From: Syntrophorhabdaceae bacterium | GTDB taxonomy: Bacteria; Desulfobacterota; Syntrophorhabdia; Syntrophorhabdales; Syntrophorhabdaceae | Direction of reading: 5' to 3' | Assembly: GCA_017992765.1 (NCBI GenBank) | Contig: JAGOOA010000002.1 | Span: 1-53,625, forward strand | DNA length: 53,625 nt | Shown here: one piece after another, positions 29,032 through 46,962 of the stretch | Layout: each line of letters begins with the position of its first letter | Numbering within the stretch: the stretch's first letter is position 1 | Position numbers and translations under genes: made by a program | The notes under the pieces: generated by a model | What the model was told of the DNA's origin: nothing | Database searches by the model: none | The model's input: the letters and a program-made list of their open reading frames with translations, nothing else

Positions 29032-30630
29032 ATGAATTTCGCAAGGTTTTCGGGGCTTAATGCCAGCAAATTCCCAAAAAGAGAGTTCATCATCGAGAGC
29101 TATCCGTCAAAAAAGACTCGTCGCTGCCTCACATGGGAACAGTTCAACGACCAGGCAAACAAGGTTGCCAACTATTTGATGAAAGACTGCGGCGTAAAGA
29201 AGGGCGATATCGTTGTTCACCTTATGATGAACTCGATGGAATGGTATGCAAGCTATATAGCGGTGCTGAAAACAGGGGCAACGGTGACGCCTCTCAATTT
29301 CCGTTTTGCAAGCGCTGATATAAAATATGCGGCCGACGTGACAAAATGCAAGGCCTTCATGTTCGGCGAACAGTTCAACGCGAGGATGGAGCCGATCATG
29401 AAAGAGATGGACTATTGCAAGCACTTCATCTGCCTCGGCAACACGATTCCCGCAGGCGTCAAGTCCTATAACGAGATCATCGAAAAAGGCGACGCGTCAG
29501 AGGTGTGCGTCGAAACAGCCGATGACGACATGGCAGAGCTCATGTTCACCTCAGGCACAACCGGCGCGCCGAAGCCTGTTTCCCATACCCACAAAACGCT
29601 CTTCTTCATAGGCATAGGCAACGCCCTTACCTATAACGAAGGCTACAACAGCGTATACCTGGCCCCGCACCCGTACTATCACAGCGGCACGCTCTTCCTT
29701 TCCTTCCCGTGCTATATAGCGGCGGGCAAGGTCCTTATGCCGATGGATCTGCAGCCGGAATTCTATCTCCAGTCAATGGCAGAAGAAAAATGCACGGGCG
29801 GCTGGAACACGGTCCCTACATGGTCAGACGTGATCAATGCCATCAAATCAGGCCAGGTAGACCTTAAAAAATATGACCTCTCGGCTCTTCTGCATATCGA
29901 AATCGGAGCGCAGCCGGTCCCTTACATTCTTCTCGAGGATTCAAAGAAGTTCTTCCCCAAGCTCCCGATCGCGAACATCTACGGTATAACAGAGGGCGGC
30001 GGCGGCGGCCTCACGAACTGCTACGATGAAGACATCATGAGAAAACCCGGCTCCATCGGAAAGGCGACGGCATTCATGGAGGCGAAGGTTGTTGACAGTG
30101 AGGGAAAAGAGCTTCCTTCCGGCGGGGTCGGCGAATTACTCATCAAGGGGCCGCGGCTCATGAAGGAATATGCCTTCAACCCCGAGATGACAGCCAAGAC
30201 GATCAAAGACGGCTGGCTCTATACCGGCGACCTTGCATACAAAGATGAGGAAGGCTTTATCTTCTTCGCCGACAGGGCAAAAGACCTTATCATCAGGGGC
30301 GGCGAGAACATCTTCCCGGCCGAGATCGAAGACGCCCTGAGAAAGCACCCCAAGATCCAGGATGTCGCCGTGCTCGGCTATCCTCACCCGAGGCTCGTGG
30401 AGATCGTTATGGCGATCATCCAACCCAAGGAAGGACAGACCATTACCGACGACGAGATCATCAATTTCGTAAAAGAAAAAGGCCTTGCGAAGTACAAATG
30501 GCCGGAAAAGATGGTCTATACCGCCATCCCGAGGAACCCGGCAGGCAAGATCGAGAAGCCTAAGCTGAGAGACACCTATGTAAAGCCTGCTAAAGAGGCA
30601 ATGGAAAAAGAGTTCAAGAAACAGTCGTAA
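29032..30630 (+). CDS. AMP-forming acyl/aryl-CoA ligase (ligase 4)
   Basis: 532 residues. Motifs: MFTSGTTGAPKPVSHTHKT (about residue 175), NIYGITEGGGGG, YTGDLAYKDEEGFIFFADRAKDLIIRGGENIFPAEIEDAL and RNPAGKIEKPKLRD. The opening (MNFARFSGLNASKFPKREFIIE) parallels ligase 3, so the divergent pair may be an inverted duplication that later diverged. AAAGGAGGGTGTT precedes ATG 29032. A strong terminator follows 26 nt after the stop, so it is probably monocistronic. Confidence 0.9.
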   Translation: MNFARFSGLNASKFPKREFIIESYPSKKTRRCLTWEQFNDQANKVANYLMKDCGVKKGDIVVHLMMNSMEWYASYIAVLKTGATVTPLNFRFASADIKYAADVTKCKAFMFGEQFNARMEPIMKEMDYCKHFICLGNTIPAGVKSYNEIIEKGDASEVCVETADDDMAELMFTSGTTGAPKPVSHTHKTLFFIGIGNALTYNEGYNSVYLAPHPYYHSGTLFLSFPCYIAAGKVLMPMDLQPEFYLQSMAEEKCTGGWNTVPTWSDVINAIKSGQVDLKKYDLSALLHIEIGAQPVPYILLEDSKKFFPKLPIANIYGITEGGGGGLTNCYDEDIMRKPGSIGKATAFMEAKVVDSEGKELPSGGVGELLIKGPRLMKEYAFNPEMTAKTIKDGWLYTGDLAYKDEEGFIFFADRAKDLIIRGGENIFPAEIEDALRKHPKIQDVAVLGYPHPRLVEIVMAIIQPKEGQTITDDEIINFVKEKGLAKYKWPEKMVYTAIPRNPAGKIEKPKLRDTYVKPAKEAMEKEFKKQS

Positions 30631-30685: not shown

Positions 30686-30701
30686 CATTTGCAAATAATG
30701 G

Positions 30702-30740
30702 TTGACATGGTTGACATCATTGGATATTCTGATATATAAT
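30702..30740 (+). promoter_or_regulatory. Strong sigma-70 promoter of the candidate small RNA
   Basis: TTGACA (30711-30716), 18 nt, TATAAT (30735-30740): both hexamers are consensus. A second TTGACA (30702-30707) with TATTCT 17 nt later (30725-30730) overlaps it. The expected start is near 30747, more than 200 nt before the next gene. Confidence 0.7.
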
Positions 30741-30746
30741 ATAAAA

Positions 30747-30852
30747 CAAGCTTGATGGGTTCGGAGACGTATCGTGTGCCTCCGAAGGTTTTTTTAAAAG
30801 GATGGTCGGGCCGCCACCTGGAGATAATTCAGGTGGCGGCCTTTATTTTTTA
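30747..30852 (+). ncRNA. Candidate small RNA with two consecutive terminator-like hairpins
   Basis: Between a consensus promoter and a strong terminator lies about 105 nt without a credible ORF. Hairpin 1 pairs TTCGGAG (30760-30766) with CTCCGAA (30780-30786) and is followed by seven T (30789-30795). Hairpin 2 is a perfect 12-bp stem, GGCCGCCACCTG (30809-30820) with 30830-30841, followed by a T-rich tail. It could be a small regulatory RNA or an attenuated leader of the pentapeptide gene 115 nt downstream. It matches no RNA family I recognise. Confidence 0.5.
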
Positions 30853-30967
30853 TAAATAGACGATAAGGTCGGGATTAGGAGATAAGCAGCTCCACGTTGG
30901 CATAGACGCAAAAAAAAGGGCCGTATGAGCTTTCATAATGAAGTTAAATTAAAAAAAGGAGGTCAAT

Positions 30968-31333
30968 ATGGTGAAAAGAACAACGTATTTATCTTTAGGG
31001 GTCCTGATGCTCTGTGCGGTGGTCTTTACCACAGCAGGGTATGGATTTAACGCCGCGGACATTCAGAAATTCAACAGCACGAACAAGTGTGGAAAGTGCG
31101 ATCTGTCTAACGCAGACTTTTCCGGAATAGATATGTATGGAGCACAGCTTGTGGATGCCAACCTGACCGGCGCAAACCTTTCTGAGGCGAGCTTCAACGA
31201 TGCCAACCTGACCGGCGCAAACCTGAAAGGGGCAAACATTAAAGGGACAAATTTTTCCGGCGCAAAGCTGTCGAACGCCACATGGATCGACGGAAGGAAA
31301 TGCAAGCCAGGCTCAATGAGCAAATGTGAGTAA
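30968..31333 (+). CDS. Secreted pentapeptide-repeat protein
   Basis: 121 residues. An N-terminal signal peptide (MVKRTTYLSLGVLMLCAVVFTTAGYG) is followed by NKCGKCDLSNADFSG and about 12 A(D/N)LxG-type pentapeptides (GAQLVDANLTGANLSEASFNDANLTGAN...) that form a small right-handed beta-helix, then a Cys-containing tail (CKPGSMSKCE). AAAAAAAGGAGG precedes the ATG. It is probably periplasmic or surface exposed; the function is unknown. Four Cys outside the repeats may form disulfides. Confidence 0.85.
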   Translation: MVKRTTYLSLGVLMLCAVVFTTAGYGFNAADIQKFNSTNKCGKCDLSNADFSGIDMYGAQLVDANLTGANLSEASFNDANLTGANLKGANIKGTNFSGAKLSNATWIDGRKCKPGSMSKCE

Positions 31334-31513: not shown

Positions 31514-33094
31514 TTAGATATGCCGAAAGGCGTTCCTGATGGTCTCTTCCCTGACCGGCCTGGTCACGAAAGAGACGACGACAAACACGATGAACGAGAT
31601 CGGCAGGGCTATGATCTGGGGATCGATCATATTCCAGGGGTGGCCCGCAAGGGTATTCGATCTGAAAAAGAACCTGCACAGGCCGAATGCCTGCGACTCA
31701 TGCTCATGAAAAAAGAGCATCCAGAAAAGGGAGATGAAAAAGCCGCAGAGGATGCTCGCCTTTGCCGCCGCCTTTGTCCCTTTTTTCCAGTAGAGCCCGA
31801 AGAAATATGCAGGTATGAACGTGGCGCCGCAGAGGCTGAAGAAAAAGGCAGTGGCAACTGCCACGACGCTTTCCGGCAGTATCAATCCTATAAAAAGCGT
31901 TGAGAAGATGCTGAACACGATCCCGACGCGCGTCACGATCGTGATCTCCGCAACTGATTTGCCCCTGAGCAGGGCCTGCTCGAAGATGTCCCTGGAGAGC
32001 GAGGTGCCAAGCGCGTGGAACTGACTGCTGTTGGCGCTCATTGCGGCGGACATGAGGGTGACGAGAAAAAGGGCGACGAACCACTGGGGATAGAACCGGT
32101 CGATGTAGAACGGTATGATCTTGTCGATGTTGCCCTGCACGGCCTTTATGGGCAGCTGGGTGTAAGTGTCATAGAAGATCACGTTGGTCAGCGCTCCAAC
32201 GGCAAAGGCAATGCCGGTGGTAAGGAGTATAAAGATCGCGGTGAAGGGGATAGACCTGTTGATCTCCCTGTCCGACTTGAGGGTCATGAAGCGGACGTTC
32301 AATTGAGGCTGGCCTATGACCCCGATCCCGACCCCCATGATCATCGTTGTAATGACATACCACCACAGGGGCGATGCCGCCGCAGGCATGGACGTGAATC
32401 CGCGGTGCCCCGCTTCCTTCAGGTATTGGGGGACGAAGGGCGTTAATTCCGTGAGGGCCTTATGGGCGCTCACGATTCCGCCAGCAGCGTGGTAGGTGTA
32501 GATACCGAGGGCAACCATGACGACTACCATGATGATGCCCTGAAATACAGAGGTATAGAGGACGCCTTTTAAGCCTCCCCAAATGACGTAGCAAGCCGTG
32601 ATAAGCAGAAAGGCGAGATAGGCCGTTGAAAAGGGGATGTTCAGATAGACCTCGATAAAGCGGGAAATGCCTATAAGGACTGCCGCCGCATAAATGGGCA
32701 TGAAGATAAGGATCACGAGACCGGAAAACCCCTGGACAAACCGTGATTCATATCTCCTGCCGAGAAGTTCCGGAAAGGTGTGCGCGTCGAGCGCCTTGCC
32801 CATCTTGCGGGTCCTCTTCCCGAAGATCACAAAAGCAACCCAGATGCCGATCATGATATTGAGGACGGTCAGCCACGACAGGCTGAACCCATAGAGCGCG
32901 CTTACACCTCCAAACCCGATTATCGCCGATGTGCTTATATATGTGGCGCCGTAGCTTAATCCCATCGTTACGGGATGGACCTGCCTGCCGGCAAGCATAT
33001 AGTCGGACACGCTTGTAGTGCGGCGGTACCCGAGGTAGCTCAGATAAACCGTTATGGCGAGATATGTGAGCGTAAATGTTATGAGATAGAACAT
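31514..33094 (-). CDS. Sodium:solute symporter (SSS/SLC5 family)
   Basis: 526 residues with about 13 membrane helices. Typical motifs: GYRRTTSVSDYMLAGRQVHPVTMGLSYGATYISTSAIIGFGG in helices 1-2, the FRKMGKALDAHTFPELLGRRYE-like loop (RKMGKALDAHTFPELL), SAAMSANSSQFHALGTSLSRDIF after helix 8, and a C-terminal helix. The substrate is not readable (monocarboxylate, proline or similar). A 60-codon gene 5 nt upstream encodes its usual small partner. Confidence 0.9.
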   Translation of the reverse strand: MFYLITFTLTYLAITVYLSYLGYRRTTSVSDYMLAGRQVHPVTMGLSYGATYISTSAIIGFGGVSALYGFSLSWLTVLNIMIGIWVAFVIFGKRTRKMGKALDAHTFPELLGRRYESRFVQGFSGLVILIFMPIYAAAVLIGISRFIEVYLNIPFSTAYLAFLLITACYVIWGGLKGVLYTSVFQGIIMVVVMVALGIYTYHAAGGIVSAHKALTELTPFVPQYLKEAGHRGFTSMPAAASPLWWYVITTMIMGVGIGVIGQPQLNVRFMTLKSDREINRSIPFTAIFILLTTGIAFAVGALTNVIFYDTYTQLPIKAVQGNIDKIIPFYIDRFYPQWFVALFLVTLMSAAMSANSSQFHALGTSLSRDIFEQALLRGKSVAEITIVTRVGIVFSIFSTLFIGLILPESVVAVATAFFFSLCGATFIPAYFFGLYWKKGTKAAAKASILCGFFISLFWMLFFHEHESQAFGLCRFFFRSNTLAGHPWNMIDPQIIALPISFIVFVVVSFVTRPVREETIRNAFRHI

Positions 33095-33099
33095 AATCC

Positions 33100-33282
33100 T
33101 TAGGGAAGCTTCTCTATAAGGTCGATCTCTTCTCTCTCCCAGCGCAGATCTTCTCTGTAGTCTCCTTCCTTTTCTATCGATCCCCTGTTCCAGTTTATGA
33201 TCCCGTAGACGACGCAGAAAAGGGCGGAAAAAAAGGAAAGGATAAAGCCTGCAAGGATCCAGATGTCAGGAAAGCCGAGCAT
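33100..33282 (-). CDS. Symporter small accessory protein
   Basis: 60 residues with one N-terminal membrane helix (FPDIWILAGFILSFFSALFCVVYGIINW) and a charged C-terminal tail (DYREDLRWEREEIDLIEKLP). Small single-helix proteins of this kind regularly precede SSS symporter genes and are named symporter small accessory proteins. It is translated 5 nt ahead of the symporter, so cotranscription is likely. Confidence 0.82.
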   Translation of the reverse strand: MLGFPDIWILAGFILSFFSALFCVVYGIINWNRGSIEKEGDYREDLRWEREEIDLIEKLP

Positions 33283-33342
33283 GATGCTATTTCATTAGCA
33301 CGCAGGTTTTTTTATTGTCAAGCTAAATAATGCTTTCACATT

Positions 33343-34038
33343 TTACAGGTGGTTGATCCCGTCCCCCTTGTTTTCTTCCTTCATCTTCTTTTCGAGATAT
33401 TCCCTGGCGATGTCTTTTCCGCCCAGGCCACAGGCTATGGCCAGGGCAAGGATAACCCCTCCGAAGGTTACGGCAAAGGCAATAATGACGGTATCCTTGC
33501 CAATCCCAAGCTGCTCCAGCGCCATCGTGCAGGACAATATGAAGACCGTAAACTTGACAAATTTGCTCAGCAGCCCGGAATATTTAATGCCGGCGTTTAC
33601 CGACGCGATAAGCACGGCCCTTCTGAAAAAGTTGCTCAGAAGATACCCTATTATCAAGATGAACGCCGCGATGAACATGTTGGGGATATAAAGAAAAAAT
33701 CTTTCCAGCAGGTGCTCTACCGTGGGGATCCTGAGGTTCTGCATGGCGACCACAAGGAAGGTAAGGATAATTATCCACTCTATTATTTTGGATATAAGGA
33801 CAGACAGGGGCTCTCTGATGCCGCTCTTGGAGAGGGCCTCGACGATGCCTGACCTTTCGGAAAATCTGTCAAGCTTTATTGTCTTAAATAATTTCTGAAA
33901 AATTACCCTGATGATGACGGCGAGAAGTATCCCGGCAACAAGCAGAAGTATCGACGTAAAAAAATTCGGGAGAAAATAAAGCAGTTTTTCATAGCACTTT
34001 TCGAAAGGCTCAACGATAACTCTCTGAAAAATATTCAT
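33343..34038 (-). CDS. MscS-type conserved-TM-helix membrane protein lacking the beta domain
   Basis: 231 residues with five hydrophobic segments. The FAVTFGGVILALAIACGLGGKDIAREYLEK segment corresponds to the pore-like helix of MscS-family and conserved TM helix proteins, but the protein stops soon after it, without the MscS beta and cytoplasmic domains. It is 15 nt downstream of the GT2 gene of the trehalose operon. An osmotic role would fit the compatible-solute neighbourhood but is inference. Confidence 0.75.
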   Translation of the reverse strand: MNIFQRVIVEPFEKCYEKLLYFLPNFFTSILLLVAGILLAVIIRVIFQKLFKTIKLDRFSERSGIVEALSKSGIREPLSVLISKIIEWIIILTFLVVAMQNLRIPTVEHLLERFFLYIPNMFIAAFILIIGYLLSNFFRRAVLIASVNAGIKYSGLLSKFVKFTVFILSCTMALEQLGIGKDTVIIAFAVTFGGVILALAIACGLGGKDIAREYLEKKMKEENKGDGINHL

Positions 34039-34053
34039 ATTCCGTACCCCCTT

Positions 34054-35313
34054 TCATTCATCCCAGCGTTTAATAAGGAAGTCCTTCTTCTCTTCGAACA
34101 TCAAGCGCAGATTTTCGACCTTTTCCTCAACTTTCCCGGAGTCGCTGTCCCACGTTTCCATGACAAACGAAGCCGTCCTTCCTATGTAGAGCGGCGTCAA
34201 TGACTTTAAAAGGTGCTCCCTGTTCATTATCCTTTTGTGCGCCGCGAGGATAAAGCTGTAGACTGTCTCGACCCAGATCTCATCGGGTATCCTGAATGTC
34301 TTTTTTTTGTTGCCGGTTAATTTTGTAAAAAAACTATAGAGCTCTTTTGTCATAAACTCCTTCCAGAAGATGCCGAGCTCTTTGATGCCGAGCGAAAAGC
34401 GGTCTATCATCCTTTCCAGGTTTACGCTGACCGGTTCAAGGCCGACGTCATACTGGAAACCAAGCGTGGGAACAGGCTCAGATGATCTTACGGGCTTCCA
34501 TGCATCGGAATAGGTTTCCATAAGATCGAACGTTGCGCTCACCACCTGGTAGAGCATTGCGCTTAAGTCTGCACCGGGGTCTTTTGCGTCGTGGATCTTT
34601 GCCCCGAGGTATGACTGGCATACGGGGAAGCTGTTCGCAACGGCAGTGGTCGTCATCCATATATCTATGCCGAATCGCGCGACATCCGTTTCCCATACAT
34701 CTTTGGCCAGGTAAAAACCGGCAAGTCTTCCTGAAAAGCCGAAGTCGCCGCCGATGGGCTGTCTGATGCGCTTGCCGTAGAGGGCGCTCGTTAAGGGGTA
34801 AACTATGCTGTTTGTGATGGTGCCGTCGTACTTATGCCTCTGGTAAAGAGGGGCGACATAATCAAATCCTCCTTCGAGGATGGGCTTGATGAGGAGCTCG
34901 ACCCATTCAGGAGTTATGCTTCTGAGGTCAGAGTCAACGACGGCGCAGGCCTTTGCCTTGATGGTTTCCGCGATCTCAAAGATCGCCCTGAACGCGCTCC
35001 CCTTGCCTGGGATCCCCTGGTACGGGGTCACTATCTTAAAGAAAGGCTCTGCCTTCCGGGTTATGAAGATCGTTCCAAAGTCGTCGACCGTTGTGCTGCG
35101 AACGATCTCCTGGGTCCCGTCCGTCGACCCGCCATCCGAATTAACGAGAAGCGCCTTGCTGTTGCGAAAATATTTTGCCAGTCCGGCCTGTACGGCCCTC
35201 ACGACGTGACCTATCGTACGGGCATTGTTATAGCTCGGGATCCCCACGAGGATGTCCGCCTCACCTATCTCCCCGGCCTGCCCGATCTGGCTGCTTATAG
35301 AATTTTTGTCCAT
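34054..35313 (-). CDS. GT2-fold glycosyltransferase of the glucosyl/mannosyl-glycerate synthase type
   Basis: About 419 residues from ATG 35313 (MDKNSISSQ), preceded by AGGGAAG; a longer frame from TTG 35361 would overlap the upstream gene. The GT-A motifs are clear: VGIPSYNNARTIGHVVRAV, LLVNSDGGSTDGTQEIV, GKGSAFRAIFEIA and CAVVDSDLRSITPEW (DxD). The GIDIWMTTTA and IHDAKDPGADL segments resemble glucosyl-3-phosphoglycerate or mannosylglycerate synthases. It is the last sugar gene of the treZ-GH57-treY operon, probably making a compatible solute; the acceptor is unproven. Confidence 0.78.
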   Translation of the reverse strand: MDKNSISSQIGQAGEIGEADILVGIPSYNNARTIGHVVRAVQAGLAKYFRNSKALLVNSDGGSTDGTQEIVRSTTVDDFGTIFITRKAEPFFKIVTPYQGIPGKGSAFRAIFEIAETIKAKACAVVDSDLRSITPEWVELLIKPILEGGFDYVAPLYQRHKYDGTITNSIVYPLTSALYGKRIRQPIGGDFGFSGRLAGFYLAKDVWETDVARFGIDIWMTTTAVANSFPVCQSYLGAKIHDAKDPGADLSAMLYQVVSATFDLMETYSDAWKPVRSSEPVPTLGFQYDVGLEPVSVNLERMIDRFSLGIKELGIFWKEFMTKELYSFFTKLTGNKKKTFRIPDEIWVETVYSFILAAHKRIMNREHLLKSLTPLYIGRTASFVMETWDSDSGKVEEKVENLRLMFEEKKDFLIKRWDE

Positions 35314-35335
35314 TCTATTCTTCCCTATTGTATTA

Positions 35336-38300
35336 TTAACGCACTTTATCAAGGAGAGCAACGGGATAATTTACGAGAATCTCCCCGATATACAGCACCT
35401 TTGATTGCCCATGACTGCGTACGGGCACGACCTCATCGGTAAAGATGTTGCGATACCCTGCCCCTTCCTTCTCAAATGGCACCGCTATGAAAGTATTGCC
35501 CCATGCAGTTTTGCCAAGCGGCAGATCGGTATGGCGCGGGATGATCCTCGAAAGAAACCTGGGCGCCACGGTTATCGCCATTGCCCCATTTCCCTTCCTG
35601 GCAAATGAACAGATGTTTTCCCACTTATCGCCGTCGGTTATCAACGGAATATATTTGCCGGCCTCGAAGAGGCGCCTGTTATGCATGCGGTAATTAAGGG
35701 CTTTATACATAAGGTACATTTTTATCATGCCATCGCTTCTTTTATCAATTGTCTGCCGCGCAACAAAAGCAGCGCCGTGGCTCCTTTCGTATTCTTTTAA
35801 TTTTTCAAGGAGTTCGATCCTTTTTTCATAATCCACAGGGCCTCTATTGTCAGGGTCGACGAGCGTAAAATTCCACAATTCAGTTCCCTGGTAGAAATCG
35901 GGAACACCGGGCGATGTTATTTTAAGGAGCGCCTGGGAAAGCGAATTGTAGATGCCGTAATCAGAGACCATGCGCTGGAACACCGCGAAGTCCTCAAGGA
36001 ACATGTTGTCTGCGGAATTTGCCAGGATGCCGTCAATGAAGACATTCATTGCGTCTTCATATGCAGTGTCCGGGTTGATCCAGCTCGTATGTTCCTTCGC
36101 CTCTCTTAAGGCCTTCTGCATATAGTCTTTGACCCTTTGTTTCAACGTTTCATATTCTTCCATGGCGGCAGTCTCCTCTATGGGCCATATGCCCAGCAGG
36201 GTCTGGTATAAAAGGTATTCTTCGTTGAGGTCCGGCACCGGATGACCATCGACAACGATCTTCTTTTTTTTGTTATACCTGTTCCACTTCGTAAGGCATC
36301 CGCTCCATATGTCCGGGAGCTCCGAGAGGACATTTATGCGCGCACGGAGGTCCTCGCTTCTTTTGCAATCATGCGTAGATGTTGTAATGAGCGCATGGGG
36401 CCACGATTTGATACGCTCTATGTTCTGACCGTGGAACGTCTTAAGCAGCGTGCCGAACCGGTCCGGGCTCCCACCAACCTCATTAAGCGAGACAAGCCGG
36501 TTAAATATATAGAATGCCGTGTCCTCCACGCCTTTTGCCATTACGGGGCCCGTAATCTGCTGGAACCTCATCGTGAAGTCAAGCCATTCCGATCTGTCGT
36601 CCCCGCTGAAATTGGGAGGGAACCTCAGCAAAAGAACGTCCCTTATAAAGTCAAAGATCGACATGTTTAGCGCCGGGTTCTTCTTTTTTGCCTTTGTTAC
36701 AGCAAGGTCTATATAGTGAGCATCCCTTTCGCTGATCTCGCTGGAGACGACATATGTCCTGTACACCGGGAAGAACGCGATAATTTCTATCAGGGCCTTT
36801 ATCAGGCTGTTCAGCGTAAAATCCCGCGTATGCCTTTCTCTTTCCGAGAGGTTGTTGAGGCGGTGGGCAAGCATATTCACTTCGCTTGACATCGCTGCCT
36901 GCATTACTAATTTTTTCTTTTCGTACACGGTGTCCTGAAAGCTCATCCCGGTCTTTGTAAATCTCTTATAGATCCTGTCAAACGCCTTTCCGTTGTTTGT
37001 ATCAACAAAGACCCCGTTCACAGAGTTAAGGAACACGTAGCCCGTTGTGCTGAAGATCGGCCACTCCCCAGGCATGATCTCTCCTTTGGTAAGTATCTTT
37101 TCGCCGACTATATAGAACGGCTTATAGCCCGGGTCAGCGACCAGCACCTCCTCGTACCTGCCGGTGATCTCTTTGTCTGCTTCGGATCTCATGTATCCGG
37201 GAGGAAGCTGCGCCTCTTTTTTCAGCTTTTCGATGTATGCCCTCCGCAGTTGAGCAAAACATTCCCGCTGGAGGCGATGAAAATAATCCGAAGGGTTGTA
37301 CAGGCCGTCGGGGTGGTCAACCCGCAGACCCGTTACCTTGCCGTCCCTGATGAGGGCAAAGATCAGCTTATGGGTCTCTCTGAATACATCTTCTTTCTGC
37401 ATGTTCAGGGCGCCGAGGTTGTTTATGTCGAAGAACCTCCTGTAGTTTATTTCCTCTGCTGCAACACGCCAGTGGGAAAATCGGTATATTTGCTCTCTCA
37501 GAAGGTTGTCGAGAAGGTCAAAGCTTTTCGGTTCCCCCTTTACGCCATTGAATATCTTTACGTTTTCATCGATGAAGCCTCTGATCTCGCTGCATTTTCT
37601 GTAAAGCCGCCAGAGGCGCCTCTTAACGATCTCTTTTTCTCTCCGCCTTTCCTTGACCTTTTCCAGATCAGTTTCCGTATAAGGCGGAAGATGGTTCAGC
37701 GCATTGATAACGCTCAGCAACTCGGTGTAATAGGGATTATCCTCGCGAAGCGCATCCCGCAATATATCTACGCGGTAATTGAGGATGTGAATATAGGTTT
37801 CCGGTATTATCGGAAATTTATGGTCATAGTATTGTATGAAAAAAGAGCCCGCCGAAAATGTTAATATCAACTCCTGATTTTCCAGAACCTTTCCGTATTG
37901 TTCGCCCAGGGAGGGGAGGAGGATCTTGTTGGCAAGCTCTTTCTTGACGGGGTCCCAGTCGATGTCAAAAAAATGTACGTATGGCGAACTCGGCCCGTTT
38001 TCCAGGACATCAACCCACCACTTGTTCTCGAAGCTCGCTATGCACATATGGTTGGGAACTATGTCAAGGATCTGTCCCATTTGCCTGCCTTTCAGTTCGG
38101 CAATGAGATCGTCGTATTCCCTTTCGGTGCCTATCTCAGGGTTGAGGGCATTCGGATCAACGATGTCGTACCCGTGCCTGCTCCCCTTGTCTGCCTTTAA
38201 ATAGGGAGAGGAGTATATGTCGCTGACCCCAAGGTCGTGGAGGTACTGTACGATCTTTTTGGCATCGCTGAACGTGAAAGAGGCATTAAACTGCAGCCGA

Positions 38301-38347
38301 TATGTGGCCACCGGGATCCTTGGGACGAGGTATCTTTCTTTACTCAC
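35336..38347 (-). CDS. treY: Malto-oligosyltrehalose synthase
   Basis: 1003 residues, within the range for TreY. The GH13 features are complete: RIPVATYRLQFNASFTFSDAKKIVQYLHDLGVSDIYSSPYLKADKGSRHGYDIVDPNALNPEIG at the start, QILDIVPNHMC, VTGLRVDHPDGLYNP with the nucleophile region, and KGVEDTAFYIFNRLVSLNEVGG. It isomerises the reducing end of a maltooligosaccharide to a trehalose unit, which TreZ then releases. It overlaps the GH57 gene by 8 nt. Confidence 0.95.
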   Translation of the reverse strand: MSKERYLVPRIPVATYRLQFNASFTFSDAKKIVQYLHDLGVSDIYSSPYLKADKGSRHGYDIVDPNALNPEIGTEREYDDLIAELKGRQMGQILDIVPNHMCIASFENKWWVDVLENGPSSPYVHFFDIDWDPVKKELANKILLPSLGEQYGKVLENQELILTFSAGSFFIQYYDHKFPIIPETYIHILNYRVDILRDALREDNPYYTELLSVINALNHLPPYTETDLEKVKERRREKEIVKRRLWRLYRKCSEIRGFIDENVKIFNGVKGEPKSFDLLDNLLREQIYRFSHWRVAAEEINYRRFFDINNLGALNMQKEDVFRETHKLIFALIRDGKVTGLRVDHPDGLYNPSDYFHRLQRECFAQLRRAYIEKLKKEAQLPPGYMRSEADKEITGRYEEVLVADPGYKPFYIVGEKILTKGEIMPGEWPIFSTTGYVFLNSVNGVFVDTNNGKAFDRIYKRFTKTGMSFQDTVYEKKKLVMQAAMSSEVNMLAHRLNNLSERERHTRDFTLNSLIKALIEIIAFFPVYRTYVVSSEISERDAHYIDLAVTKAKKKNPALNMSIFDFIRDVLLLRFPPNFSGDDRSEWLDFTMRFQQITGPVMAKGVEDTAFYIFNRLVSLNEVGGSPDRFGTLLKTFHGQNIERIKSWPHALITTSTHDCKRSEDLRARINVLSELPDIWSGCLTKWNRYNKKKKIVVDGHPVPDLNEEYLLYQTLLGIWPIEETAAMEEYETLKQRVKDYMQKALREAKEHTSWINPDTAYEDAMNVFIDGILANSADNMFLEDFAVFQRMVSDYGIYNSLSQALLKITSPGVPDFYQGTELWNFTLVDPDNRGPVDYEKRIELLEKLKEYERSHGAAFVARQTIDKRSDGMIKMYLMYKALNYRMHNRRLFEAGKYIPLITDGDKWENICSFARKGNGAMAITVAPRFLSRIIPRHTDLPLGKTAWGNTFIAVPFEKEGAGYRNIFTDEVVPVRSHGQSKVLYIGEILVNYPVALLDKVR

Positions 38348-40802
38348 CTTTACTCCTCACCGCTTGGCGAAGTACCGTACCCGTATTAAAATATATCAAT
38401 TCACCCAATTGCCTGAAGCGGTCCACCCAGAGCCCGGCATCTTTATCGCCGCTTTCAGCCCTCTGAGAGATCTCCCTGAGTGACCTCCCGGCGATCCTGT
38501 AATATATATTCTGTATCGTCCAATAATTTATGTTGGCCGGGATGGACCTCAAAAGCCCTATAGTGCCCCCTATCCTCGTAAGAAGCGAAAAATTCTCATG
38601 ATCCTTTGCAAGCTCCGCCATGAACCTTTCTGTTTTTCGCCTTACAATCAATTCGGTATCAGTAAGGTCGAAGGAGACCTTCCATTTTTTTATGTCCTTT
38701 ATTATCGCGCCTATCTTCTCGAGGTCTACGTCGTCTTTTTGAAACTCATTTTTGATCGATGAAAGAAGGGCGTGCCCCGCTGCGGTCTGAAAGATCTTCG
38801 GCACGGGCATTCCGGCTTCCTGTAAAAAACCCATCAGTATGCGATCGTTATCAAAGATCCTCTGATAGACCCTCTCGTAGCCTTCGATCGTTTCGCGCAA
38901 TATGATCTGCAGCACCTCTCTTTGCTTATCGAGGAAGAGGTGCACCAGCGAATAATTATGCATCCCGAAATGGGTATCCATGAGATGGATGATCTTTGCC
39001 ACATCTCCATGTTCAAAGGCATCGGCGATCTCACGTTTCATCGTGCCGTAAGGCTGATCGCCAAGAAAGGATCTCACGCCGCCGTGAAAGATGTGGCCCC
39101 CAAGATACAATGTGCAGTAACTTATGTCCTCAGCATCGCCTGTTATCTTTGAGGAAACGGTTATTTTTCCGACGTTTAGCCTTTTATCGCCGGATCGGAT
39201 CGATTCCCGGTCCTTCCTTTGGACGGCATAGCTGAACACGTCGGCATCATCGGGATATTCCTCGATCACCGAGCTTACCGCATAGTGGACCGCTACCTTC
39301 TTAAGGTCAACCATGGCAGGCTTCACGAATCTTTCGTATATTTCGGCTCCGTCGCCATGCTCCTGGATGTTGCTTTTAGCGTTTTTCAGTTTTTTTACAA
39401 ATTCCGGTTCTATATCGCTCCCGGATATTTCCCCGGCGAGCTGTATTGCCCTGGCGGCGTATTTGAGTATCTGTATTGTCTCGATGCCCGAAAGCTCGTC
39501 GAAGAACCAGCCGCAGCTTGTGTACATAAGCATGGCATGCCTTTGCATTTCGAGCAGCTTAAGGACGGTTATTTCATCCTCGCGGGCCAGATCGCGCGTT
39601 TTATGCTTCCCGATAAAACCGTTGAACTGGCCCCGGGAACGATCAAGTATGATCCCGATATAATCGTTCCTGGCCTCCCATGGGTCCTTCAGGTATTTTC
39701 CCGCATTCTCTTCGTAGGTCGCGAAGAGAAGATCTCTCAGCCAATCGAGCGCCTCACGCAGCGGAGCCCTCCACGACTGGCTCCATTCAGGAAACCCGCC
39801 GGAACTGCACCCACAGTCGCTTCTCCATCTCTCTATGCCGTGGTAACAGCTCCACGAGGTGTTTTCAAGGATCTGCACCTCGTGGGAAGGCAGGTGCCCT
39901 GCGAGGTATTCTCCGTAGTTGGTGCATCGCGCGAGCCCTTTTCTCTCAATGTATTCAAGGGCATATGCGAGGGCCATCTCGCCAAATGTGTGATGGTGCC
40001 CGTATGTTTCACCGTCTGTTGCGATGTTGAGGAGCTGCGGCCTTTTCCTGATGTCGGAAAAACCGGTGAGCAGTCGGGCGGCAAAGGCCTCGCCGCTATC
40101 GAGCAGCTTTTCGAAGGCAACCGCCCTGGATATAGGGCCGTCATAAAAAAATATATTGATCGTGCGGCCCGAAGAAAGCCTCAGGAGGTATGCCCGCGTC
40201 GGATCTATCCGCGCGTTGCTGACATCCTTCCATTTGCCCGTGCCCGTCTTCCTTACCCTGGAAGCCTGGTGGGGGGCAAGGATAACGAAAAGGATCCCCT
40301 GTTCTGCAAGTATTTCCAGTGTTTCCAGGTCAACGGCCGTTTCCGGCAGCCACATGCCCTCAGGAAACCGCTTGAACCTGTATTCAAAATCCTTTATGCC
40401 CCATATGACCTGGGTTCTTTTATCCCGCGGGTGGGCCAGGGGCATGATAATGTGGTTATATGCCTGGGCGATCGCATTTCCGTGGCCTGACATTCTTTTT
40501 AAGCTTTCTTTGTCCGATTCAAGTATCGCGCGATATACCTCGGGCGATCTTTGCTCCATCCACGACAGGAGCGTGGGGCCGAAATTAAAACTTATTTTGG
40601 AATAATTGCTTACGATCTCCATAATGCGCTTATCGCCGTCGAGAATGCGCGATGCGGAATTAGGCGCATAACATTCGGCGTTTATTCTTTCGTTCCAGTC
40701 GTGGAACGGATATGCGGTATCCTGCACCTCGATCGCTTCAAGCCACGGATTTTCCCGTGGGGGCTGATAAAAGTGGCAGTGAATACATATATATCGATCC
40801 AT
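38340..40802 (-). CDS. GH57-family glycoside hydrolase with DUF3536
   Basis: 820 residues. The GH57 barrel begins with IHCHFYQPPRENPWLEAIEVQDTAYPFHDWNERI and has FNFGPTLLSWMEQ, MWLPETAVD with the catalytic-region Glu, and ATDGETYGHHHTFGEMALAY. The long C-terminal half is the DUF3536-type helical region. Relatives act on alpha-glucans (amylase or transglycosidase), so it may trim or debranch glycogen for TreY/TreZ. It has a GGAGGAC ribosome-binding site and lies between treZ and treY. Confidence 0.88.
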   Translation of the reverse strand: MDRYICIHCHFYQPPRENPWLEAIEVQDTAYPFHDWNERINAECYAPNSASRILDGDKRIMEIVSNYSKISFNFGPTLLSWMEQRSPEVYRAILESDKESLKRMSGHGNAIAQAYNHIIMPLAHPRDKRTQVIWGIKDFEYRFKRFPEGMWLPETAVDLETLEILAEQGILFVILAPHQASRVRKTGTGKWKDVSNARIDPTRAYLLRLSSGRTINIFFYDGPISRAVAFEKLLDSGEAFAARLLTGFSDIRKRPQLLNIATDGETYGHHHTFGEMALAYALEYIERKGLARCTNYGEYLAGHLPSHEVQILENTSWSCYHGIERWRSDCGCSSGGFPEWSQSWRAPLREALDWLRDLLFATYEENAGKYLKDPWEARNDYIGIILDRSRGQFNGFIGKHKTRDLAREDEITVLKLLEMQRHAMLMYTSCGWFFDELSGIETIQILKYAARAIQLAGEISGSDIEPEFVKKLKNAKSNIQEHGDGAEIYERFVKPAMVDLKKVAVHYAVSSVIEEYPDDADVFSYAVQRKDRESIRSGDKRLNVGKITVSSKITGDAEDISYCTLYLGGHIFHGGVRSFLGDQPYGTMKREIADAFEHGDVAKIIHLMDTHFGMHNYSLVHLFLDKQREVLQIILRETIEGYERVYQRIFDNDRILMGFLQEAGMPVPKIFQTAAGHALLSSIKNEFQKDDVDLEKIGAIIKDIKKWKVSFDLTDTELIVRRKTERFMAELAKDHENFSLLTRIGGTIGLLRSIPANINYWTIQNIYYRIAGRSLREISQRAESGDKDAGLWVDRFRQLGELIYFNTGTVLRQAVRSKGE

Positions 40803-40814
40803 AGTCCTCCAGTC

Positions 40815-42662
40815 CTATACTTTCCGGTAGACAACCGCGCTCCATGGGTGCAGCGAAACAGGTGCGCCGCCGCTGCATGACCCTACCACCCGGCCCGCTG
40901 TCTCCGGGGCGGCGCCTCCCCACTCCGGAGAAGAAGAGTCGAGCATTTTCCTCCACGTGCCTTGTTTTAAACGGGGCGAGATAGATGCCGTCCCCCCGTG
41001 AAAATTATAAAAACAGACCACTTCATCGCCGCCGGCCGATCGATGCACGGAAAGGCATCTCTCTTTTGCAAACCCCTTTATCTCCATCGTTTTCTTTGAG
41101 ATATCTCTCAGGGGAGGGGTCGTCTTACGCATGCCTATCAGGTGCCTGTAAAACTCGTGTAGCATTCTGTGCGCCCCCTGCAGGCGAAGATCGATGTTCA
41201 ACGTCGAGGCAAGGAACGTGCTTTCTTCCTGAGGATCGGGAATAGGGCCATCCCATCCAAAGGAAGAAAATTCTTCCATCCTCCCCTTTTTTACCGCTTC
41301 GATGAGGGCCGCATCGGAGTGGTCCACAAAGTAATTGAACGGCGCCATTTCCCCATACTCTTCCCCCATAAATAAAAGTGGAATGAAAGGCGACAGGATC
41401 ACTGCGGCGGCGGCAAGCTTGAGCTTCTCCAGCGAATGTTCCTGGCTGAGCCTGTCTCCGCGTTTCCGGTTGCCGACCTGGTCATGGTTCTGAGAGAACA
41501 CGACAAACTGTTCCGCCGGCCTTCTCTTCGAGGAATTGCCGTGCCTGCGTTTTCTGTACGCGGAATACTGACCCGAATAAACAAACCCCTCGCGGTATGC
41601 CTTGATCAGGTGGGACAGCTTCCCAAAATCCTGATAATACCCGTCCGATTCCCCTGTAATGAGCGTGTGGAGGGCGTGATGGAAGTCATCGTTCCACTGC
41701 GCATCGACCCCGCAACCGCCTGCCCCGTGCGGATCGATCACCCGCACATCGTTGAGGTCGCTTTCGGCCATTACATATACCTTTCTCCCGAGTCCGGCAG
41801 CCTTAACGTGTACTGCCTGCGATAATTCTTTGAGGATATGGGTGGCGCTCAGGTCATATATGCCATGTATTGCGTCGATCCTGAGGGCATCGATATGGTA
41901 TCGCGAAACCCAGTGCAGGGCGTTGCTGACGAAGTAGTCCCGCACCCCGTCGCTATATGGGCCGTCAAAGTTTATCGCATCTCCCCATGGCGTCCTGTAC
42001 CGGTCAGTAAAATAAGGGCCGAAATCTCCAAGATAATTTCCCTCAGGCCCCAGGTGGTTATAGACTACATCGAGAACGACCGCGATGCCCGCCTTATGGC
42101 ATTCGTTGACCAAGAGCTTCATCCCGTCAGGCCCCCCGTAGGAATTTTGAGGAGCAAAAGGATATGCCCCGTCATATCCCCAGTTTCTTCCGCCGGGAAA
42201 TTGCGCAACAGGCATGACCTCTATCGCGGTAATGCCGAGATCCTTGAGGTAGGAAAGACGGGAAAGGATGGCCTCAAAGGTGCCGTCGCGGGTAAAGGTG
42301 CCGACGTGGAGCTCGTATAGCATGTAATCAGAGAGCGGTATGCCTTTCCAGCCGGCGTCCTCCCAGGCGAACGACCCGTGGTCAACCAACTGGGATGGGC
42401 CGTGTACTCCCTGCGGCTGAAAATTGGACGCCGGGTCGGGCCTGTCAATCGCGTTGTTGATCCTGTAATAATAGAGAGCTCCCGGGAACGTATTGTCGGC
42501 AATGCCTTTCCAGTATCCCCTTGCATCTTTTTCCATCGGCAGCAACCGTGCCGCGGAGTTCAGCATCACTACTGAAACTTCCTGCGCAAGGGGTGCCCAG
42601 ACGGCAAAGCTCCACTCGCCGCGTCCCCGGTAATAAGGGCCGATCGTGTCGCCCGCAATCAT
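40815..42662 (-). CDS. treZ: Malto-oligosyltrehalose trehalohydrolase
   Basis: 615 residues, normal for TreZ. N-terminal beta-sandwich (VRGRGEWSFAVWAPLAQEVSVVML-like), then the GH13 barrel: LYELHVGTFTRDGTFEAILSRL, VMPVAQFPGGRNWGYDGAYPFAPQNSYGGP, VVLDVVYNHLGPEGNYLGDFGPYF, DALRIDAIHGIYD and FSQNHDQVGNRKRGDR. It releases trehalose from the TreY product. It is followed 12 nt later by the GH57 gene; the coiled-coil gene lies 8 nt upstream. Confidence 0.95.
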   Translation of the reverse strand: MIAGDTIGPYYRGRGEWSFAVWAPLAQEVSVVMLNSAARLLPMEKDARGYWKGIADNTFPGALYYYRINNAIDRPDPASNFQPQGVHGPSQLVDHGSFAWEDAGWKGIPLSDYMLYELHVGTFTRDGTFEAILSRLSYLKDLGITAIEVMPVAQFPGGRNWGYDGAYPFAPQNSYGGPDGMKLLVNECHKAGIAVVLDVVYNHLGPEGNYLGDFGPYFTDRYRTPWGDAINFDGPYSDGVRDYFVSNALHWVSRYHIDALRIDAIHGIYDLSATHILKELSQAVHVKAAGLGRKVYVMAESDLNDVRVIDPHGAGGCGVDAQWNDDFHHALHTLITGESDGYYQDFGKLSHLIKAYREGFVYSGQYSAYRKRRHGNSSKRRPAEQFVVFSQNHDQVGNRKRGDRLSQEHSLEKLKLAAAAVILSPFIPLLFMGEEYGEMAPFNYFVDHSDAALIEAVKKGRMEEFSSFGWDGPIPDPQEESTFLASTLNIDLRLQGAHRMLHEFYRHLIGMRKTTPPLRDISKKTMEIKGFAKERCLSVHRSAGGDEVVCFYNFHGGTASISPRLKQGTWRKMLDSSSPEWGGAAPETAGRVVGSCSGGAPVSLHPWSAVVYRKV

Positions 42663-42670
42663 AATTTACT

Positions 42671-42964
42671 TCACTTAAATCTCGTTTTTACTTGGTCGAA
42701 CGTAACCTTCAGGTCGTCCAGCACCTTTTCTATGCCTGCGGCGACGTCTTCCCATGCGCCTTCGCCTTTTCCCTTCAGCTCCTCCAACCTTTTTGTCGCT
42801 GTTTCTTTCTTTTGATTCAGGTTCTCGATCTGCCTGGCATACTCAGTGCCGGCATCCGCTTTTGCCTTTTCCGCCTTTGCCATGAGCCCGTCGATCTGCG
42901 CGTTCCATTCTTTTAATTGCACGGCAAGCTTTTCAATGTATGCCTCCCTTTTCTCCTTGTCCAT
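42671..42964 (-). CDS. Small coiled-coil protein
   Basis: 97 residues from ATG 42964, chosen for its GAGGAGG ribosome-binding site 7 nt upstream; an upstream extension is hydrophobic and unsupported. The sequence is almost all heptad-like helix (EAYIEKLAVQLKEWNAQIDGLMAKAEKAKAD ... LEELKGKGEGAWEDVAAGIEKVLDDLKVTFDQV). Similar short coiled-coil proteins with a WEDVKAGIEKAWDDLK-like end are widespread and often stress related. The molecular function is unknown. It is the likely first gene of the treZ operon. Confidence 0.78.
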   Translation of the reverse strand: MDKEKREAYIEKLAVQLKEWNAQIDGLMAKAEKAKADAGTEYARQIENLNQKKETATKRLEELKGKGEGAWEDVAAGIEKVLDDLKVTFDQVKTRFK

Positions 42965-43083
42965 CTGCAACCTCCTCTTTATGTTATAAGTATACAATAT
43001 TATAGCATAAGAAAAAATATACTCCACCCCTCCAGACAATTCCCGGACGCCATTGCAAACGCTTTCAATGAGGGCCTGGGGTT

Positions 43084-43350
43084 CTATGATTTATATTTAG
43101 CAAGATCTTTGACAAGACCCACGATATATGGATCATATTCCTGCATCATAGCATCTTTGGCCCTGAGTGTTGCAGTGTACGAAGGTGCCTGATGGTCTTC
43201 GGCGGTCTGATCTTTTGAAAAAACGTTCGCGGAATGATCGAGCCCGCATTGCCCAACCAGGTGCTCTCTGAGATAGTGCAGGTTCAAAAGAAAACGGAGC
43301 CAGCCGAAAAGATCCTTTTTGTACAGCAGATATTTTTGGTGAAGCTTCAT
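43084..43350 (-). CDS. Hypothetical protein
   Basis: 88 residues from ATG 43350, which has GGGAGGTGTACAGC upstream. Basic and aromatic N-terminus (MKLHQKYLLYKKDLFGWLRFLLNLHYLREHLVG), polar middle, and a helical C-terminus (ATLRAKDAMMQEYDPYIVGLVKDLAKYK). I do not recognise the family. The good ribosome-binding site and gene-like composition make it likely real. It lies between the glgC pair and the coiled-coil gene. Confidence 0.6.
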   Translation of the reverse strand: MKLHQKYLLYKKDLFGWLRFLLNLHYLREHLVGQCGLDHSANVFSKDQTAEDHQAPSYTATLRAKDAMMQEYDPYIVGLVKDLAKYKS

Positions 43351-43417
43351 GCTGTACACCTCCCTTCCTTATTAGAAGTATAATGAAAAAATTGAAGATT
43401 TTCTGTTAAGCAGGCTA

Positions 43418-43673
43418 CAATCCGGATAATGGACTACCCCTATGCCCCCTCACCCTGACCCTCTCCCGCGAGGGGAGAGGGATACAGAAAAAAATAGAAT
43501 GATTACAGAGGCCCCTGACCCTCTCCCGCGAGGGGAGAGGGAATAATGTCACCCCGCGGCGGTTGGAGAGGGAATAGTGTCACCCCGCGGCGCGCTGGAG
43601 AAGGAATAGTGTCACCCCACGGCGAGGGGGAACACTGTCATCACGCAGCGAGGTGCGGGGCATTATCCGGATT
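43418..43673. repeat. Compound palindromic repeat block, family R3
   Basis: The block is bounded by AATCCGGATAAT (about 43420-43431) and ATTATCCGGATT (43662-43673), a perfect 12-nt inverted repeat. Inside are two copies of CCTGACCCTCTCCCGCGAGG followed by ggagaggga (about 43454 and 43514) and three copies of gaatagtgtcaccccgcggcg or close variants (about 43541-43624). No gene is seen in this 330-nt gap. Confidence 0.85.
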
Positions 43674-43684
43674 AAAAGGCGGTT

Positions 43685-44947
43685 TCAGGGTTTTTCGAGA
43701 GTAGATCCATCCCTGACGGACAGGTCATGGAAGTCGGCCTTTTCGACCATGGGATAGACGATACAGTTCGTGCCCATCTTTGTGCTATCGGGAATCTTTG
43801 CCCCTTTTCCTATGAGGGTTATGCCGGAATTAAGCTGTTCCGGGAATTCGGCATTTGCATGTTCCGGGTTGCCCGTACCGATGGAGCAATTTCTTCCAAT
43901 CGCTACGCGCTTATCGATGATGCATCTGCTGACCGATGTGCCCGACTTTATGACAGCATCGTGCATTATGATCGAATCGCTGATGAACGCCCCTTTTTCC
44001 ACGATCACGCCCGGGGAGAGCACGGAATGGCATACGCGGCCCCTGATAACACAGCCGGGCGAGACGGCCGAATCGGACACCTCCGCCTCATCATGAATGC
44101 GGATGGGCTGACGGTCGCTCGGCGGCCCCTCGGCGACAACATTGGTTTTTGTCCCCCATGCTTCAGGGTTGAGGTCCGATTTGGGATCCAGGAGGTCCAT
44201 GTTGGCATCCCAGTAAGCCTGGATAGTTCCTGCATCCTTCCAGTAACCTTTGAAGCTATATGCGTACACATTTTTTTCTTCCATGGCCTTGGGAATGATG
44301 TGGTGGCCGAAATCCTCTTCTTTTGTTCTTCTCAGCATCGTTACGAGGTAGTCCCTGTCAAAGACGTAGATGCCCATTGAGGCAAAGTTTGACCTTGCCT
44401 TTTTTGGTTTTTCTTCCCAATCGATGATCCTGTGCGCATTGTCAACGATGCCGATGCCGAAATTGTGCGTTTCTCTGCGAGGGACCTGGATCATGCCTAT
44501 CGTCACCTTTGCGCCGTGACTTCGATGGAACTCCACCAGCGGGCGATAGTCCATCGCGTAGACGTGATCGCCGGAGAGGACAAGAACGTCGGTGCAATTC
44601 CCGGCAGAAGTGATAAAATCAAGGTTCTGCCTCACGGCATCGGCGGTCCCCCGATACCAGTCCCAGTCCTTTTCACCTGTTTTGGGGGGCAGGATCTTTA
44701 TGCTCCTGGTGCGTCCCGACATATCCCATGAGGAGCCGTCGCCGATATGGTCCATCATGGAAAGGGGCTTGTACTGTGTCAGTACGGCAACCCTTGTAAG
44801 GCCCGAGTTCGCTATGTTGCTCAACGTAAAATCGATGATCCTGTACTGCCCTCCGAAGGGGACTGCCGGTTTTGCCCTGAGGCGCACCAGGATGTTCAAG
44901 CGGCTGCCGACGCCGCCGGCAAGCAGCATTGTAAGTGTTCTCCTCAT
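43685..44947 (-). CDS. glgC: Glucose-1-phosphate adenylyltransferase
   Basis: 420 residues. LAGGVGSRLNILVRLRAKPAVPFGGQYRIIDFTLSNIANSGL is the nucleotide-binding signature, with WYRGTADAVRQNL, VLVLSGDHVYAMDY (metal-binding Asp), GIGIVDNAHRIIDWEEKPK and a C-terminal left-handed beta-helix of hexapeptides. It makes ADP-glucose for glycogen synthesis. The gene overlaps the second GlgC-like gene by 4 nt, so the two proteins may form hetero-oligomers. Confidence 0.93.
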   Translation of the reverse strand: MRRTLTMLLAGGVGSRLNILVRLRAKPAVPFGGQYRIIDFTLSNIANSGLTRVAVLTQYKPLSMMDHIGDGSSWDMSGRTRSIKILPPKTGEKDWDWYRGTADAVRQNLDFITSAGNCTDVLVLSGDHVYAMDYRPLVEFHRSHGAKVTIGMIQVPRRETHNFGIGIVDNAHRIIDWEEKPKKARSNFASMGIYVFDRDYLVTMLRRTKEEDFGHHIIPKAMEEKNVYAYSFKGYWKDAGTIQAYWDANMDLLDPKSDLNPEAWGTKTNVVAEGPPSDRQPIRIHDEAEVSDSAVSPGCVIRGRVCHSVLSPGVIVEKGAFISDSIIMHDAVIKSGTSVSRCIIDKRVAIGRNCSIGTGNPEHANAEFPEQLNSGITLIGKGAKIPDSTKMGTNCIVYPMVEKADFHDLSVRDGSTLEKP

Positions 44948-46179: not shown

Positions 46180-46223
46180 GACACAAAACCTCTCGATTGC
46201 CGGAGACTATTGGTTCAACACTT

Positions 46224-46418
46224 AACCCAGATTCTCCATTAGGATTAGCACAGTGTCAGGCTCTTCCCCGCAAACACCCTCATTTCGCTCCTGCGGCTCC
46301 ATTCGCTCGCGTTCGGCTTCGGAACTTTTGCTTCGCAAAAGACCGAGCTTCCTCGCCTCACGACGGTTTGCTATAGGAAAGCCCGACACTGTGCTAATGA
46401 CTTATCCGGGCTTAACAT
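46224..46418. repeat. Nested palindromic element, copy C
   Basis: The outer arms TTAGCACAGTGTCAGGCTCTTCC-like (from 46245) and the mirror ending GACACTGTGCTAA (46397) are nearly the same as in copy A. So are the outward extensions acccagattctccattagg and cttatccgggctt. The inner 103-nt core (46269-46371, inverted relative to copy B) matches copy B at 98 of 103 positions by eye. The rest of this 330-nt gap (46419-46509) shows no gene. Confidence 0.87.
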
Positions 46419-46509
46419 ATACAGCAGTTGATGCTGCTATTATTATACCACGTAAATAAGTTTTTTTTACATCGGCTTGATCCTTTATCGTTAAGGACCC
46501 GGGCCGGCG

Positions 46510-46962
46510 TCAGCGTATCCAGACGTAATCCCTGTGAATCCATCCGGTATCATTATCTCCGTCGATTATCTTGATCCACGGGCCTTTTCTCTTGATCATC
46601 CTTGCGGAATAATACTTCTCCATCGGCGTATCGAACCGTTTTTCATAATCTATCCCCGGCCCCTTCCTCACGTTCACTCCTTCGGTTTTTACAACAACGC
46701 AGCGATATTTGCTTGTTAAAAGATTCCTGTGTATCCAAAGGACCGTATCGTCAACATCCTTTACGGCATACCATTTGCCTGACAGGGACGCGCCGACCTT
46801 TTCAAGGGGCATATATCTATACACTGTCCAGCCCACCTCATAGGTTGTCCCGGGCCCTGTCCGGAGATTTGCTTTCGGTACCTTTACGCAGACGGCGCCA
46901 AGGGGACTGCTGCCCGCTATTGATAAGAAAAATACGGTAATGAGAATGAGGCGTGCCTTCAT
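46510..46962 (-). CDS. Secreted SH3-domain protein
   Basis: 150 residues from ATG 46962 (AAGGAGGAGACC upstream). The signal peptide MKARLILITVFFLSIAGSSPLGA is followed by two bacterial SH3 domains: VKVPKANLRTGPGTTYEVGWTVYRYMPLEKV with WYAVKDVDDTVLWIHRNLL, and CVVVKTEGVNVRKGPGIDYEKRF with WIKIIDGDNDTGWIHRDYV. Such proteins bind cell-wall peptides or glycans in the periplasm. No catalytic domain is attached. Confidence 0.88.
   Translation of the reverse strand: MKARLILITVFFLSIAGSSPLGAVCVKVPKANLRTGPGTTYEVGWTVYRYMPLEKVGASLSGKWYAVKDVDDTVLWIHRNLLTSKYRCVVVKTEGVNVRKGPGIDYEKRFDTPMEKYYSARMIKRKGPWIKIIDGDNDTGWIHRDYVWIR

Follow-up and report, generated by a model that had tools for sequence, protein, structure and literature searches.

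In the available text of White et al. (2022; PMC9646797), nhaA-I RNAs are described as Li+-I riboswitches, which dominate Rfam family RF03057, usually stand before nhaA and are believed to control ribosome binding. The same text describes rare terminator-type variants, named Na+-II and found in Deltaproteobacteria only, that respond to Na+. One of these, from Desulfobulbus propionicus, has the same architecture as the RNA described here; in vitro it allows read-through on Na+ and weakly on Li+, a C54U change broadened its response to Li+, Na+ and NH4+, and the gene behind it is described as hypothetical.

We analysed a stretch of 53,625 nucleotides from a Syntrophorhabdaceae bacterium (contig C34 of a 2.42-Mb genome in 71 contigs), here called the window, in which an RNA of this class stands before a gene for a pentapeptide-repeat protein. 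The RNA class is already known; a link to a pentapeptide protein did not turn up in our literature search. The locus comprises the following features.

29032-30630: AMP-dependent ligase-type gene, preceding the promoter and hairpins
30702-30730, + strand: conserved promoter TTGACA-17-TATTCT, a 10/12 consensus match and the likelier true promoter
30711-30740, + strand: overlapping perfect promoter TTGACA (30711)-18-TATAAT, a 12/12 consensus match
30757-30818, + strand: nhaA-I (Li+-I / Na+-II class) riboswitch aptamer, Rfam RF03057
30761-30785, + strand: aptamer stem P1 with its loop, from the Rfam alignment
30789-30795, + strand: run of seven T in the P1-P2 linker, judged to be no terminator
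30800-30818, + strand: second aptamer stem, P2, capped by the conserved CGGGCC loop; the 3' strand of P2, 30813-30818, also belongs to the terminator
30808-30851, + strand: intrinsic terminator serving as expression platform, a 15-bp stem (30808-30842) with a T-rich tail
30968-31333, + strand: 121-aa pentapeptide-repeat gene, the gene probably regulated (Pfam PF00805, 24-sequence alignment, predicted beta-solenoid)
31514-33094, - strand: sodium:solute symporter family gene (Pfam SSF, E 2.1e-51), given as context; regulation by the RNA is not claimed

The aptamer matches RF03057 with 48.3 bits, the gathering score being 37, and an E value of 1.5e-6 when the whole window is searched. It is the sole match to this family in the window and in its own genome, and the matches to other Rfam families (Trp_leader, OrzO-P and others) were all below their gathering scores. 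P1 and P2 are present in the window RNA together with the conserved GGGU, AGG and CGGGCC letters, as seen in the Rfam alignment and by covariation, and the highly conserved letters of the P2 loop and the junction are intact. Of the 39 RNAs found in the window's family 36 entered the covariation alignment, repeats and stretches shorter than 90 nt having been dropped. P1 has changed on both sides in seven of its eight pairs, and for P1 and P2 together 97.8% of cells are paired and 11 of 14 pairs have changed on both sides, a result equalled in none of 500 shuffles. The P1 hairpin, whose stem lies within 30761-30785, folds at -8.3 kcal/mol, and 11 of 200 shuffles were as stable. Folded alone the aptamer is not unusually stable (z 0.86), which is expected if the ligand is required and is no positive evidence. 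We regard it as near certain that the window RNA belongs to the nhaA-I class.

Directly overlapping the aptamer, the terminator hairpin (30808-30842) has a folding energy of -30.8 kcal/mol (z -7.84; none of 200 shuffles as stable), and terminator-like sites are not more numerous in the region than in shuffles (4 found, mean 4.0). Because its 5' arm is built from the loop and the 3' strand of P2, aptamer and terminator are mutually exclusive. Across the same 36 family RNAs 91.3% of terminator cells are paired, and eight of the 15 stem pairs show changes on both sides; slid versions of the stem pair in only 34.6 to 63.1% of cells, and shuffles did as well in 6 of 500 cases on the both-sides-changed measure and in 0 of 500 on four others. 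The base common to P2 and the terminator covaries three ways in the phylum, with 39 RNAs carrying G-C-G, 13 carrying A-T-A and 15 another combination (n=67). By a rule that requires the stem to start inside the aptamer, with one mismatch and a T-rich tail, and that calls a score of at least 14 strong, the terminator is strong in 68 of 85 RNAs, weak in six and absent from 11, although several of these 11 show an imperfect terminator by eye. For each of the 68 none of 30 shuffled downstream sequences scored as well; the window terminator itself scores 25, again with 0 of 30 shuffles as good.

These structures recast what a sequence-only reading of the same DNA had made of it, namely two hairpins each trailed by a T-run. 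The second is indeed a strong terminator, whereas the first is P1 and is absent from the list of terminator-like sites. The RNA of about 50 nt proposed to end at the first T-run is abandoned, since that run occupies the P1-P2 linker and its length varies within the genus, with seven T in the window and 6, 4, 4, 3, 2 and 2 in the pentapeptide-linked copies of six congeners. The other proposed end, near 105 nt at the second T-run, agrees with the terminated leader of about 100-115 nt that is expected here. What stands of the suggested switch is a 3' end that is conditional, decided between P2 and the terminator and hence between short leader and read-through, and not a choice between 50 and 105 nt. 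The flanking genes, ligase-type before the element and pentapeptide after it, are both confirmed, the longest + strand ORF inside the element is a 35-aa frame starting with TTG, in keeping with its description as non-coding, and both stems, whose conservation had been left to be checked in relatives, are conserved and covary.

Two overlapping promoters had been claimed as well, and both are present. TTGAC[AT]-17-TATT[CT]T is kept in all seven aligned genus members, the window included, so that transcription probably starts near 30737. The 12/12 site is confined to the window among the seven, where a direct 9-bp repeat of TGGTTGACA at 30699-30716 creates the second, perfect -35 box, and as an ancestral promoter it is therefore rejected. 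A consensus match alone is no proof, since the 3.5 kb scanned hold no more promoter-like sites than shuffles do (2 found, mean 2.8).

RF03057 was matched in 28 of the order's 46 genomes and in 40 of the phylum's 395; the window's family has 39 such RNAs, spread over 27 of its 39 genomes. Counting tandem RNA copies separately, 29 of these 39 RNAs (in 25 of the 27 genomes) precede a pentapeptide gene at 24-206 nt from the aptamer. The products have 121-137 aa and a hydrophobic N-terminus, and their repeats are preceded by CxxCDL and followed by two cysteines; some starts among the 29 were called shorter, and one copy is cut by a contig end. Behind the 46 RNAs outside the family no pentapeptide gene of this type was found, so that the link is a family-level trait. 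The other ten family RNAs have no pentapeptide gene behind them within the available sequence, several lying near contig ends; two of the ten stand before a purA-like gene and one before a PfkB-like ORF (labels by eye), and one stands 94 nt before a 365-aa ORF. In two congeners (L057 in G006:C109 and L058 in G003:C119) a second nhaA-I RNA with its terminator lies about 305 nt before a purA-like gene, again labelled by eye.

Seen from the gene, the 27 top-scoring homologues of the order (E <= 6.0e-36) include 24 with the RNA upstream. The upstream RNA search covered 15 loci, one of which (G010:C70) had just 59 nt upstream of the gene, and three strong homologues (G027:C200, G022:C44 and G015:C108) are without an RNA upstream. 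A homologue at E <= 1e-30 is present in 26 of 27 RNA-bearing family genomes versus one of 12 RNA-less ones, and no RNA was found at the three further pentapeptide loci of the window genome (C41, C66 and C67). In three family genomes tandem RNA pairs 134-138 nt apart stand before the pentapeptide gene; elsewhere in the phylum there are tandem pairs and, before another gene, one triple array (G174), the three family pairs and the triple array being L013, L020, L076 and L046. We consider it likely that the riboswitch controls the pentapeptide gene.

The product of 30968-31333 matches Pfam PF00805 (E 1.1e-19; 70.1 bits against a cut-off of 20.2) through tandem A(D/N)LXX repeats, which in the 24-sequence alignment follow a KCxKCDL motif and are succeeded by two cysteines. 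Its signal-peptide-like N-terminus, judged by eye rather than with a predictor, suggests that the protein is exported. AlphaFold, run with a five-row alignment, models a beta-solenoid (mean pLDDT 72.9, 80-90 over residues 41-110, pTM 0.59), and a fold search with this model returned pentapeptide proteins including the thylakoid-lumen protein 3n90. A role in gyrase protection is unsupported, since the scores for Qnr (31.6 versus 240 bits) and MfpA (38.8 versus 360 bits) are far below the curated NCBIfam cut-offs and the protein looks exported. The closer structural relatives are Arabidopsis AT2G44920 (PDB 3n90) and the cyanobacterial Rfr proteins 2o6w and 2f3l, which have the same right-handed pentapeptide beta-solenoid, are similar in size and are likewise apparently exported; unlike them, the set to which the window protein belongs has its repeats flanked on either side by cysteine motifs and is probably under riboswitch control. 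To our knowledge, most exported pentapeptide-repeat proteins are without a known function. We suggest that this one may help the cell envelope to cope with salt.

The class membership, the exclusive covarying structures, the conserved promoter and the linkage to the protein across the family, all observed here, are the fixed points of the reading that we favour. We think it probable that the 5' leader of the pentapeptide gene contains a terminator-type ('ON') ion riboswitch of the nhaA-I class, and that this is most likely a sodium sensor of the Na+-II type. RNA polymerase would start near 30737 and transcribe the aptamer (30757-30818). At low Na+ the terminator (30808-30842) would capture the 3' strand of P2 and transcription would end near 30850 with the release of a leader of about 100-115 nt. 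Once Na+ is high, the aptamer with its bound ion would keep P2 closed and so block the terminator, and polymerase would read through into the gene at 30968. The direction of control, ON at high ion, is drawn by analogy with the D. propionicus RNA.

The window RNA resembles the D. propionicus Na+-II RNA in its Rfam aptamer family, in a terminator platform that overlaps P2, in a deltaproteobacterial-type host and in having a small non-transporter gene behind it. With the Li+-I RNAs of Azorhizobium caulinodans and Pseudomonas monteilii it shares the Rfam family and the P1/P2 architecture, and it differs from them in its terminator and pentapeptide gene and at the bottom of P1, where it departs from the Rfam consensus. 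The association with nhaA or another Li+-export gene is absent at the window, the downstream gene being that of the pentapeptide protein. On the opposite strand beside that gene lie a sodium symporter, an MscS-type protein and trehalose/glycogen-type enzymes, and a symporter copy at least 82% identical is found no more than 1 kb from the pentapeptide gene, on either side, in eight of 12 relatives examined. The run at 31514-48368 (- strand) holds the symporter, the MscS-type protein, a GT2 protein (glucosylglycerate-synthase-like by eye), amylase-family enzymes resembling TreY and TreZ, a GH57 protein, two nucleotidyltransferases and a TreT-type glycosyltransferase. From its gene content it looks like a compatible-solute island, and parts of it are kept beside the pentapeptide gene in the congeners G003-G006.

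Downstream genes outside the family were assessed from the products of 40 of 116 candidate ORFs, picked by eye. In Pfam these comprised five glycosyltransferase family 20 proteins (trehalose-phosphate-synthase type), four Na+/Ca2+ exchangers, four MscS-type channels, three Na+/H+ exchangers, one CitMHS transporter, two GT2 proteins (one of which also carries a HAD domain), one sucrose-synthase-type enzyme, four Band_7 proteins, two periplasmic binding proteins, one HAD-type hydrolase (Hydrolase_3) and six others, with seven lacking a match. Because the RNA elsewhere precedes genes of sodium and osmotic balance, and at the window neighbours the sodium symporter, MscS-type and trehalose/glycogen-type genes, Na+ is favoured, and we take it to be the likelier ligand.

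The alternative that survives best is a Li+-sensing (Li+-I) riboswitch that controls the pentapeptide gene through an unusual terminator platform. RF03057 is dominated by Li+-I RNAs (PMC9646797, available text). The equivalent of D. propionicus C54, on our mapping, is model position 42, which probably sets specificity; here the window, unlike D. propionicus, has U, the Li+-type letter found in 74 of 85 RNAs and, as far as the available text goes, in most nhaA-I RNAs. Given the broadening caused by C54U, Li+ or mixed sensing is possible. Against it, the P1 bottom is of the [TC] type in 80 of 85 RNAs (GGGTTC, GGGTCC, GGGTCT or GGGTTT), whereas the Rfam consensus, GGGUGC...GCAGG, has G-C, the consensus line standing in this comparison for the Li+-I RNAs of Alpha-, Beta- and Gammaproteobacteria. 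Among the genes behind the RNAs examined (the 40 ORFs chosen by eye from 116) none was recognised as nhaA, and those recognised concern Na+ and osmotic balance; moreover, terminator-type members are named Na+-II and given for Deltaproteobacteria only in the available text of PMC9646797. Taken together, a Li+ sensor seems unlikely at this locus.

The RNA might instead be a decayed or ligand-blind attenuator that has kept its fold and terminates constitutively, the gene being driven from elsewhere. The ordinary stability of the isolated aptamer would fit, and so would the room offered for another promoter by an additional, weakly conserved stretch of about 90 nt that separates the terminator from the start codon (30852-30955 in the window) and is carried by the window and three of six congeners (present in G000-G003, absent from G004-G006). 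A sigma-70-type scan of the + strand found no promoter in this stretch, and a hidden RNA element there is unsupported too, no Rfam match being above gathering score. Against the attenuator, the conserved P2-loop and junction letters are intact and the aptamer scores well above the gathering score, and we regard it as very improbable. Least credible is the stand-alone, trans-acting small RNA of the sequence-only reading, with read-through incidental, which could call on its own promoter and strong terminator and on a leader of about 105 nt that should accumulate whenever the terminator works, and which we reject because the RNA matches the RF03057 aptamer and because its association with one gene family is conserved (24-206 nt between RNA and gene in the 29 linked cases), the covarying alternative structures with one common strand also speaking against it; the element is thus better read as a cis-acting riboswitch.

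The spread of the RNA beyond the family was surveyed with a degenerate RNA pattern that requires GGGTYC and draws chance matches. In the named genomes it returned at least 117 stretches at no fewer than 80 loci. Among the matches listed, 19 of 20 loci checked against Rfam hold RF03057 above gathering score, in records of Omnitrophota/Omnitrophica, Elusimicrobia, Verrucomicrobia, Nitrospirae, Methylomirabilis and others, and one, actinobacterial, has no RF03057 match. A strong terminator accompanies 35 of 82 pattern matches among those listed, Desulfobacterota-type records included, and the same matches provide examples of the terminator form outside Deltaproteobacteria (L079, L089, L111, L113 and L140). 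The candidate-gene list omitted 22 loci, seven of them likely chance or unsuited matches and the others Desulfobacterota-type, several already counted. The host range of the terminator form thus appears to be wider than the available text of PMC9646797 gives.

In Omnitrophota, Elusimicrobia and Verrucomicrobia the RNA stands before proteins with a sensor-like N-terminus (L105, L110, L111, L113, L135, L136 and L139). In five of these (L105, L110, L113, L135 and L136) Pfam places a trehalose-phosphate-synthase-type domain after the sensor-like part, with dCache in L136, and L111 and L139 were grouped with them by N-terminal similarity alone. Several Omnitrophota records and one Desulfobacterota-type genome have the RNA before Band_7/HflK-like genes (L082, L089, L114, L118 and L028; the label of L118 is by eye).

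Our literature search, outside which most subscription journals lay, found no paper that brings pentapeptide repeats together with a riboswitch and sodium, and nothing on pentapeptide repeats with osmotic stress in Deltaproteobacteria. The word 'pentapeptide' is absent from the Na+-II riboswitch and nhaA-I motif papers found, PMC9646797 included, and the papers on pentapeptide-repeat proteins, salt stress and the periplasm appeared unrelated from their titles and opening abstract lines. The genes described here extend the set attached to terminator-type nhaA-I riboswitches beyond that in the available text of PMC9646797. On a broader reading, on which we are evenly divided, the whole family would keep an exported, cysteine-capped pentapeptide beta-solenoid under sodium-triggered antitermination, tandem RNA copies would at times sharpen the response, and the same terminator-type RNA would run Na+ and osmotic regulons in Omnitrophota and Elusimicrobiota, outside the Deltaproteobacteria to which the published account confines it. 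If true, the protein would be an envelope salt-stress factor and a riboswitch-controlled pentapeptide protein, which would give a physiological role to a class of exported solenoids. An ion riboswitch before an exported pentapeptide gene names the inducing condition, most likely high sodium, and with it the question of the protein's function becomes testable.
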